Shown in pieces: positions 23,706 to 26,398 of a stretch of DNA of 36,318 bases. How positions within the stretch are numbered: the first letter of the stretch is position 1; each line of letters opens with the position of its first letter. Origin of the DNA: Oscillospiraceae bacterium (lineage in GTDB: Bacteria; Bacillota; Clostridia; Oscillospirales; SIG530); assembly GCA_015067075.1 (NCBI GenBank), contig SVND01000025.1, positions 1-36,318 on the forward strand, given 5' to 3'. The position numbers were made by a program, and so were the translations under genes. The notes beneath the pieces are model-generated. The model was given only the letters and a program-made list of their open reading frames with translations, did no database searches and had not been told where the DNA came from.

Positions 23706-24815
23706 TTATTTCATTCTGCGCTGGGGAAGCTCAGTGAAGTTTTGGGGCTCGTTGACAACTCTTCCTGTACCCTCTGCAACGCAATCCAAAGGATTTTGTG
23801 CAATGTTTACATGTATGCCTGTTTCTTTCTCGATAAGCTTATCAAGCCCCGTCAAAAGAGCTCCGCCGCCTGTAAGTGTAATACCGCGGTCGATAATATC
23901 GGAGGAAAGCTCGGGCGGAGTTGCCTCAAGAGTGGATTTTATGGCATCGATAATTACAGAAAGAGGCTCGCTAAGCGCCTCGCGCACCTCGGGCATAGTT
24001 ATTACGATAGTGTTGGGAAGACCGCTTACGAGGTCGCGTCCGCTTATCTTCATGACGACCTCGGGTTCGTTGGATGAACCGAAAGCATCGCCGATTATTA
24101 CCTTTTTGCCGTCGGACTCAACGGGCATAGCAGTGCTGACGCGAAGCTTCATGTCCTCGTCTGCAACGGGATAGGCAGAGCCTATACGAATTTTTATATC
24201 TTCAGCTGTGCGTTCACCGATGAGTAAGCTATATTTTTTCTTTATGTAATTTATAATGGATTCTGTAAGCTCGTCACCTGCGACTCTTACAGATTTTGCG
24301 GTGACGATGCCGCTGAAGGATATAACAGCAACCTCGGCCGTTCCGCCGCCAATATCAACTATCATATTTCCCGTTGCGTCAAAAACGGGCAGACCTGCAC
24401 CGATGGCGGCGGCCATGGGCTCTTCAATGAGCACGACCTCGCCTGCGCCTGCAAGCTTTGCCGCATCCTCAACAGCGCGGCGTTCTACCTCTGTAACGCC
24501 TGAGGGAATGCAGATGACCACGCGCGGACGGGAGAAAAATCCACCGTGAACGACCTTACGAATAAAATATTTAAGCATATCGGCTGTGACGTCGAAATCT
24601 GCGATAACGCCGTCTTTAAGGGGACGCAATGTGCGGATATTACCGGGAGTACGTCCTATCATACTTTTGGCTTCGTTTCCGACTGCTTGTACCTTGCCTG
24701 TCGTATCGTTTACGGCGACAACGGAGGGCTCACGCAAGACGATACCCTTACCCTTTACGAAAATAAGTGAATTGGCTGTGCCAAGATCTATTCCAATGCC
24801 TCGAGAGAGAAACAT
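23706..24815 (-). CDS. mreB: Rod shape-determining actin-like protein MreB with extra segment
   Basis: The 369-residue bacterial actin has phosphate-1 loop [13 protein letters not shown], phosphate-2 [16 protein letters not shown], adenosine loop [12 protein letters not shown], and the membrane-inserting N-terminal MFLSR. MreB filaments steer the elongasome. Typical MreB is about 335-345 residues. Here [16 protein letters not shown] is followed by about 30 additional residues (about 222-253) before the expected [15 protein letters not shown]. The ATG at 24815 with AAGGA upstream is chosen over an in-frame start at 24866 that has no support. No separate promoter is clear, so it may be co-transcribed with zapA-dut-maf. 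Confidence 0.94.
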
Positions 24816-24858: not shown

Positions 24859-24879
24859 GCGCACAAGCCGCTTGTGCGC
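24859..24879. other. Hairpin between maf and mreB
   Basis: A perfect 9-bp GC-rich stem (24859-24867 with 24871-24879), 3-base loop, between two minus-strand genes. On the minus strand it is followed by CTTTGACTC rather than a T-run, so it is more likely a processing or attenuation site than a full terminator. Confidence 0.4.
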
Positions 24880-24896
24880 GAAAAATAATACTAAAA

Positions 24897-25478
24897 TTAC
24901 AGATCAAATACGTTGATGCCGAATTCTTCTTTAAAAATTACTGCAACCTTGCATACGGGAAGACCGACTACATTGAAATAATCGCCGTCTATTTGCTCAA
25001 CAAGTGCGGCGCCTCGCTCCTGTATACCGTAGCCGCCTGCTTTATCCTCGTATTCCCCTGTTTTAACGTATGCTTCGATCTCTTCTTCGGAAAGATCGCG
25101 GAATTTAACTCTTGTGCGGCAGTAATCCACCACTTCTTTGCCTTCGTGAATAACGGCAAAGCCTGTGTACACGTCGTGCCAGTTTCCCGAAAGCATATTG
25201 AGCATGGCAAAAGCTTCGCTTTCGTCTGCGGGCTTACCCATTATAAGGTCGTCGTAAACAACGACGGTATCTGCGCCGAGTATCATATCATCCTCGTCGC
25301 ATTCCTTCGCCGTTTCCCGAGCTTTTTTTACTGCGAGCATTTCTACAAAGCTTACACAGTCGATATCGTTGGGGATATCCTCGTTAATGTCTGCAGGCTT
25401 TACCTTTACGTTAAAACCCATTTTACTTAAAAGTTTTTGTCTTCGCGGTGATTTTGATGCAAGTATCAGCGTACTAAT
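24897..25478 (-). CDS. maf: Maf-family nucleotide pyrophosphatase, probable ATT start
   Basis: Maf hydrolyses non-canonical nucleoside triphosphates (m5UTP, UTP, dTTP type) and is linked to division arrest. Seen: GADTVVVYDD, GKP, the DKAGGYGIQ signature and YFNVVGLPV ending. The essential N-terminal motif S-K-S-P-R-R lies upstream of the first ATG (25421) in the same frame, after I-L-A. The frame is open back only to a TGA at 25487-25485, and the sole start-like codon with correct spacing is ATT at 25478, 9 bases after AGGAG. An ATG start at 25421 would lose SPRR. Alternatives are CTG at 25469 or a one-base deletion in this sequence (a TTG at 25483 is out of frame). With ATT the protein has 193 residues, the normal family length. 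Confidence 0.88.
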   Translation of the reverse strand: MSTLILASKSPRRQKLLSKMGFNVKVKPADINEDIPNDIDCVSFVEMLAVKKARETAKECDEDDMILGADTVVVYDDLIMGKPADESEAFAMLNMLSGNWHDVYTGFAVIHEGKEVVDYCRTRVKFRDLSEEEIEAYVKTGEYEDKAGGYGIQERGAALVEQIDGDYFNVVGLPVCKVAVIFKEEFGINVFDL

Positions 25479-25515
25479 TTCAAGTCACTCCTTAATCTTT
25501 TTAATGTATCAATAA

Positions 25516-25974
25516 TCAGTTTTGAGAAATTCCTGTTGAGCCAAAGCCACCGCTTCCCCTCGCTGTTTCGTCCAGCAAGTCGGTAAAAAACGGTTTTGCT
25601 TTGATTATGGGTGTTATAACTATCTGAGCTATCCTGTCTCCGTCGTTGATGGTGAAGACTTTGTCAGATTGATTTATAATTCCGATTTTTATTTCTCCGC
25701 GATAATCGCTGTCGATAACGCCGACGCAATTTGACAGCGTTATACCGTGCTTTACGGCAAGTCCGCTTCGCGGATAAAGCATCGCTGCCGTGTTTTCAGG
25801 CACGGAAATTGCCAGCCCTGTGGGAATGAGTGCGCGCTGCATCGGTGCAAGCGTTACGGGTGCATCAAGGCAAGCGCAAATATCCATGCCTGCCGCGCCG
25901 TCTGTGGCGTACGAGGGAAGCTGTATGTCGCGCTCGGTCAGTTTTTTGAATGCAACGCAGGTCAATTTATTCAC
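25516..25974 (-). CDS. dut: dUTP diphosphatase (trimeric dUTPase)
   Basis: It hydrolyses dUTP to dUMP and pyrophosphate, keeping uracil out of DNA and feeding dTMP synthesis. All five trimeric dUTPase motifs are present: AAGMDICA (about 27-34), PRSGLA, GVIDSDYRGEI with the catalytic Asp, RIAQIVI, and the flexible C-terminal RGSGGFGSTG. The 152-residue length is standard. The start is taken as a GTG at 25974 overlapping the zapA stop by 8 bases, but a TTG nine bases further on is possible as neither has a strong ribosome binding site. Confidence 0.93.
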   Translation of the reverse strand: MNKLTCVAFKKLTERDIQLPSYATDGAAGMDICACLDAPVTLAPMQRALIPTGLAISVPENTAAMLYPRSGLAVKHGITLSNCVGVIDSDYRGEIKIGIINQSDKVFTINDGDRIAQIVITPIIKAKPFFTDLLDETARGSGGFGSTGISQN

Positions 25975-26332
25975 CGTCCGTTTTCTTTTTAAGCACATCA
26001 AGCTCAGCGAGAGCCTTGCCGAGTTCGTTACGAAGTTCCGTAAGCTGTCTTACGGTTTCCTCTTGCTCGGTGCGTAAAGCGTGATAATCGTCAAGAGCTT
26101 CTTTAAGCTTTGCGCGAAGATTTGCGTTATCTGTTTGAAGCTTTGTGTTTTCGTCGCAGTAGTTTACAGCTGTAAGAACAGTTGCCTGAAGAGCAGAGAG
26201 CTTTCTGTTGGCAAACATCATGGAGTTTATATTTTTATCCACGTATGCGGCACAGCGTTTCATATATTCAGGTGTTTCAGGAGCGGTAAGCGTATATTCC
26301 GCACCGCCTATGGTCACAGTTACTTTATTCAA
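25967..26332 (-). CDS. zapA: Cell division protein ZapA
   Basis: ZapA is a small cytoplasmic protein that bundles FtsZ filaments at the Z-ring. The 121-residue protein has an N-terminal globular part (NKVTVTIGGAEYTL, then TPEYMKRCAAYVDKNINSM) and a C-terminal coiled coil (about 70-118, rich in E/L/K heptads), the standard family layout. The start is a TTG at 26332 with GGCGGG upstream; the longer frame reaches the promoter and is rejected. It is the first gene of the zapA-dut-maf-mreBCD-mrdA run. A possible promoter has TATAAT on the minus strand of 26370-26375. Confidence 0.87.
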   Translation of the reverse strand: MNKVTVTIGGAEYTLTAPETPEYMKRCAAYVDKNINSMMFANRKLSALQATVLTAVNYCDENTKLQTDNANLRAKLKEALDDYHALRTEQEETVRQLTELRNELGKALAELDVLKKKTDGE

Positions 26333-26369
26333 ATGGATCCCGCCTTTTGTGTATAACATTACAGTATAC

Positions 26370-26398
26370 ATTATAATATATATTTGCGATAAAAGAAA
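26370..26398 (-). promoter_or_regulatory. Putative promoter of the zapA-mrdA run
   Basis: On the minus strand TATAAT (complement of 26370-26375) with a poor -35 (TTTCTT) 17 bases upstream. It lies about 38 bases before the zapA TTG start. Confidence 0.5.

Follow-up and report, generated by a model that had tools for sequence, protein, structure and literature searches.

Gene content of the maf locus

The window, by which we mean the whole stretch of 36,318 nucleotides analyzed here, carries on its minus strand, in this order, zapA, dut, maf, and then mreB, mreC, and mreD. The features surrounding the start of maf are the following.

25967-26371, minus strand: zapA, upstream of dut
25516-25965, minus strand: dut (dUTP diphosphatase), the upstream neighbor of maf, identified from the sequence and profile searches
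25488-25493, minus strand: AAGGAG, the Shine-Dalgarno (SD) sequence of maf, from the sequence and the genome spacing scan
25485-25487, minus strand: in-frame TGA barring any start further upstream, codon -8 counted from the L of LASKSPRR
25466-25483, minus strand: out-of-frame TTG (25483-25481), 4 nt after AAGGAG, with its five-codon frame to TGA 25468-25466
25476-25478, minus strand: proposed ATT start codon of maf, 9 nt after AAGGAG, from its spacing compared with 230 open reading frames (ORFs) of the genome
25440-25463, minus strand: LASKSPRR, the Maf active-site motif, 5' of the first ATG, from the sequence, with the role of Ser10 and Arg13 as given in PMC3899018 (in excerpt)
25419-25421, minus strand: first in-frame ATG of maf; the 174-aa product from here lacks the LASKSPRR motif
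24897-25478, minus strand: maf reading frame counted from the ATT (193 codons and a stop), matching PF02545, TIGR00172, and B. subtilis Maf (1ex2)

Read from the ATT, the maf frame encodes a protein that scores 210 bits against PF02545 (cut-off 27), with residues 4-183 of 193 aligned to profile positions 2-185 of 187, and 170.5 bits against TIGR00172 (cut-off 117.15). Its best match among solved structures is B. subtilis Maf, 1ex2 (E 7.3e-37), and in that alignment SPRR, a Glu, a Lys, GADT, GKP, and YGIQ are all in register. The S-R-E-K-D-K signature described in PMC3899018 (in excerpt) is present, as are the Arg, Thr, and Gln of the YhdE type, where we infer the matching of residue numbers. 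The signature Ser and Arg are part of the product only if translation begins 5' of the first ATG. The maf product is a member of the family by these matches and is predicted to be a complete nucleotide pyrophosphatase of the YhdE/Maf type, a family marked also by pyrophosphatase activity on dTTP/UTP and modified nucleotides. It is the single Maf match in the genome (G000; 2.26 Mb in 85 contigs, 95.87% complete).

On the upstream side of maf, the stop codon of dut (25518-25516, minus strand) lies 22 nt before AAGGAG. The dut gene itself appears to start at TTG 25965-25963, apparently immediately after the zapA stop codon (GAATAAATTG; window 25963-25972, minus strand), an arrangement of tight two-gene coupling. 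Between maf and mreB, an inverted repeat, GCGCACAAG CGG CTTGTGCGC, is followed by a T-rich stretch (window 24859-24879, minus strand) and, read by eye, looks like a terminator. The MreB encoded beyond it (window 23706-24815, minus strand) apparently has about 370 residues, against 334-339 in the family models. Its matches to Pfam and TIGR00904 are split in two, as though some 30 residues had been inserted beyond roughly position 230.

The start region of maf

Following the in-frame TGA, the minus strand reads CTT GAA ATT AGT ACG CTG ATA CTT GCA TCA AAA TCA CCG CGA AGA, and the maf frame stays open from TGA 25487-25485 to the stop at 24897. No ATG, GTG, or TTG occurs in this frame between that TGA and the motif at 25463-25440. 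A sequence-only reading of this DNA had held that S-K-S-P-R-R is encoded in frame upstream of the first ATG, that an in-frame TGA blocks any start further upstream, and that ATT is the only start-like codon at a normal distance from the SD. All of this holds: the S-K-S-P-R-R residues are encoded at 25457-25440 on the minus strand and the first ATG lies at 25421-25419, the TGA is at 25487-25485, and the ATT at 25478-25476 stands 9 nt from AAGGAG.

The longest unbroken match of the maf SD to AAGGAGGTGA is AAGGAG, six bases. Here the anti-SD of the organism is assumed, because the 16S 3'-end pattern that we searched for was not found in the genome. Occlusion of the start by RNA structure is unsupported, the predicted structure around the maf start being slightly weaker than that of shuffled sequences (z 0.88, with 168 of 200 shuffles folding at least as well).

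Spacing between SD and start codon in the genome

We compared the maf start with other starts in 36 stretches of the same genome together with the window, 567,213 bases in all. This material yielded 458 ORFs, called mechanically (at least 100 codons, overlaps resolved by length), so that some of them are not genes. Of the 458, 230 have a single canonical start backed by an SD match of at least 5 bases, 59 have several such starts, and 169 have none. The 230 single-start ORFs begin with ATG (193), GTG (19), or TTG (18). Spacing, counted between the last G of AAGGAG and the start codon and scanned from 2 to 14, peaks at 8 (54 ORFs) and 9 (48 ORFs), with 211 of the 230 starts at 5 to 11, and a spacing of 4 or less occurs in 6 of the 230. 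The ATT of maf is therefore at one of the two commonest distances in this genome.

An ATT could also stand at such a distance by accident. In the two wrong frames of the 230 single-start ORFs, ATA, ATC, or ATT falls at a spacing of 7-10 in 23 of 460 cases, a control that runs somewhat low, as part of the stretch is taken up by the real start codon; the plain frequency of these triplets near starts, 8.6%, would raise it to about 11%. It is thus unlikely that chance by itself put the maf ATT at normal spacing, although the figure of 5 to 11% is not negligible.

The same distribution bears on the alternative offered by the sequence-only reading, in which one base has been lost between SD and motif, in reality or in the assembly, and has pushed the nearby TTG out of frame. 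That TTG does stand 4 nt behind AAGGAG at the head of a frame of only five codons, and among the 18 TTG starts of the 230 ORFs one has a spacing of 4 and one a spacing of 2. A spacing of exactly 4 is nonetheless rare, with 3 of 230 ORFs against 48 of 230 at spacing 9, and with 1 of 110 against 29 of 110 where the SD match is at least 6 bases; these counts favor an ATT start over a one-base deletion. A deletion would also make the ATT at the modal distance a coincidence of the 23-in-460 kind. We regard the loss of a base as very improbable.

Initiation at some other place in the maf frame fares worse still. The candidates are the internal ATG at 25421, another weak codon (ACG 25472, CTG 25469, or ATA 25466), or re-initiation after the five-codon TTG frame, which ends over the codons CTG ATA, shortly after the ATT. 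For the internal ATG the scan recorded no SD match, and its product would be without LASKSPRR, the motif that supplies a Ser and an Arg of the Maf signature (PMC3899018, in excerpt). The ACG, CTG, and ATA are 15, 18, and 21 nt from AAGGAG, beyond the 5 to 11 nt at which 211 of the 230 starts fall in the scan of 2 to 14. We find a start at any of these sites scarcely credible.

Beyond maf and infC, no convincing near-cognate start emerged among the 458 ORFs, in a near-cognate scan that covered only the 169 ORFs with no SD-supported canonical start (match of at least 5 bases). The maf and infC stretches had been deliberately included in the ORF scan, so that infC is not an unbiased hit. One ATC candidate (L074 14341, a 133-aa ORF) was rejected, because a canonical codon precedes it in the ORF and its SD, AGGTGA, is 11 nt away.

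infC in the same genome and order

The infC start region of the same genome reads TTG GAG GTG CCT GTT ATA AGC ATT AAA GAA, in which GGAGGTG is the SD and ATA follows at a spacing of 9. The in-frame TTG and GTG overlap this SD and have no SD of their own.

L041:1700-1750 (G000 contig C13), positions 1731-1729, minus strand: apparent ATA start of infC, behind GGAGGTG

A comparison of the infC locus with Rfam gave no family at gathering score. In three infC genes from one genus of the order (g6), GGAGGTG is followed by ATA (L222), ATA ATA (L223), and ATC (L224). The organism probably makes use of a near-cognate start already, since its infC apparently starts at ATA.

maf starts across the order

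A Maf match is found in 361 of the 394 genomes of the order. We compared 183 maf genes at order level, the relatives including no other genome of the same family. The set consists of the window's own gene, those of 49 of the 50 other genomes matched in an initial search (G039 was left out), the 26 best-scoring and the 60 next-best among further genomes, and 47 more; some listed matches, such as that of G075, were not taken, and the lowest-scoring Mafs of the order lie mostly outside this sample. In the 60 bases around the motif start, 182 of the 183 genes differ. A protein search of genome contigs with Maf returned 9 loci at 30-44% identity, none of them close, and a search of viral contigs returned none. 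Elsewhere in the order, the Maf match at G369:C4:78556-79098 contains one in-frame TGA, which may stand for a broken gene, a sequence error, or recoding.

Most of these genes have a conventional start. Canonical starts supported by an SD account for 129 of the 183, and a further 42 have an ATG within 10 codons without a recognized SD. Only a GTG or TTG, or a farther ATG, in each case without an SD, is available in 10, and in the remaining 2 no canonical codon lies within 16 codons of the motif. The total was built from two sets, with 94, 31, 9, and 2 genes in these classes in the first (136 genes) and 35, 11, 1, and 0 in the second (47 genes). Among the 129 SD-supported starts, the start lies at -4 from the L of LASxSPRR in 49, at -5 in 18, and at -7 in 9. 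The window's ATT, at -5, thus occupies a common start position of its relatives, while the TTG restored by a deletion would stand at the rarer -7.

The two genes without a canonical codon within 16 codons of the motif are the window's and that of G028 (L011), which reads AGGTGA TTT ATT ATT TTC CCG GCA AAA AAA CCA GAA AAA ATA ATA before LASKS. In G005 (L015), a member of the same genus g6 as G028, the only canonical codon is a TTG 15 codons upstream without an SD, and the gene reads GGG ATT TAT ATA ACG AAA ATA ATT before LASQS. The genus has a third genome, G047, in which maf has an ATG. The 180 maf genes other than those of the window, G028, and G005 have a canonical codon in this region, 129 of them with an SD. 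A TATAAT box is present roughly 40-50 bases before the candidate maf starts of both G028 and G005, where maf may have its own promoter.

This distribution indicates that a maf without a canonical start is a rare, lineage-specific, and probably derived state with no conservation across the order. The lineages of the window and of G028 may represent separate origins. We make no claim that near-cognate starts are enriched in maf, as the 2 in 183 does not differ from a CoaE control family, in which 0 of 25 parsed loci lacked a canonical codon (30 loci, 5 of them unparsed).

Having most relatives canonical near this place (the 129 with SD and the 42 with ATG) also brings in an explanation that the sequence-only reading had missed when it named a one-base deletion as the alternative to ATT. 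An ancestral canonical start at the same place could have become ATT by a single substitution, either as a recent loss that leaves the gene nearly silent or as an error in the draft consensus, and the ATT would then not be a maintained start. Such a substitution accounts for the position and spacing equally well as a working ATT, and the genome is a draft of 85 contigs. Set against this, the rest of maf and its SD are intact, G028 is in a similar state, and start-codon consensus errors are presumably rarer than genuine near-cognate starts. On balance we think a substitution of this kind unlikely.

Comparison with known near-cognate starts

With no canonical alternative and a normal SD distance, maf is a candidate for the known class of bacterial genes with near-cognate starts, judged from its sequence. 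Our search of the open-licence literature found no report of an AUU or other near-cognate start for maf. The AUU start of pcnB in E. coli reportedly limits its expression, as experiments by Binns and Masters in 2002 are said to have found. The pcnB gene resembles maf in having an AUU start and a product that is not an initiation factor; the effect in pcnB is experimental, whereas that in maf is deduced from DNA.

The infC gene offers the classical parallel, starting at AUU in E. coli and B. subtilis (PMC1805508, in excerpt), at AUA in S. aureus (PMC13009471, in excerpt), and at ATC in Streptomyces (PMC5472188, in excerpt). As in maf, an ATN start codon follows the SD at a suitable distance, and no canonical codon could serve in its place. 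Unlike in maf, the codon of infC serves autoregulation and the near-cognate start is kept across distant bacteria; maf for its part encodes no initiation factor, and its near-cognate state is not conserved in the order.

Other genes share single aspects with maf. In S. aureus, cvfC1 (AUU) and ccpN (AUA) likewise have near-cognate starts placed by the SD, but these combine an extended SD with conserved start codons, according to excerpts of PMC13009471, whereas maf has a six-base SD and a start that is not conserved at order level. We do not assign maf to the S. aureus type, as the six bases of AAGGAG fall short of extended SD pairing. Streptomyces sigR is comparable in that a weak start acts as dosage control of a single gene; it differs in that its start is GTC and that its repression by IF3 was tested in vivo (both from PMC5472188, in excerpt).

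A proposed weak AUU start for maf

We consider it likely that maf is a normal full-length gene in which a well-spaced AAGGAG sets the initiator tRNA on AUU, presumably with low efficiency, which would keep the supply of Maf small. The observations behind this reading are the sequence of the start region, the lack of a canonical start, the modal SD spacing, the intact Maf, and the apparent ATA of infC. We judge a working ATT likelier than a substituted canonical start: nothing else in the gene is damaged, near-cognate starts are a known, though rare, normal state, and G028 is similar. Against it count the lack of conservation in the order, an SD of only six bases, and the draft state of the genome, with its 85 contigs.

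By analogy with better-studied genes, initiation at maf would proceed as follows. The AAGGAG would position fMet-tRNA on the AUU; initiation there would be weak and, as in infC and Streptomyces sigR, open to restraint by IF3; weak initiation would hold Maf at a low level; and this low dosage would be tolerable or useful to the cell. In S. aureus, a reporter with an AUU or AUA start and a strong SD reaches about 10% of its AUG level in poor medium, and with the AUA of ccpN up to 30% in rich medium (PMC13009471, in excerpt). A low level of Maf would fit the biology of the protein: in B. subtilis, as told in PMC3899018 (in excerpt), septation is blocked when maf is carried on a multicopy plasmid, whereas inactivating the gene leaves no apparent phenotype.

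A more far-reaching version places maf, a nucleotide-pool and division-inhibiting enzyme, in a small set of genes that have repeatedly been given near-cognate starts in the order, with IF3 tuning Maf jointly with infC. Separate origins would then lie behind the window genome and genus g6, in which G028 has ATT ATT and G005 perhaps ATA or ACG. We hold this extension to be decidedly unlikely.

Gene finders limited to ATG, GTG, and TTG would start maf at 25421, losing the active-site motif, or would call the gene broken. The effect on wider biology is modest. Should the ATT serve as the start, maf would be added to the short list of bacterial genes with a dosage governed by a weak start codon, and the infC of the same genome, with its apparent ATA start, would be the obvious link to IF3.
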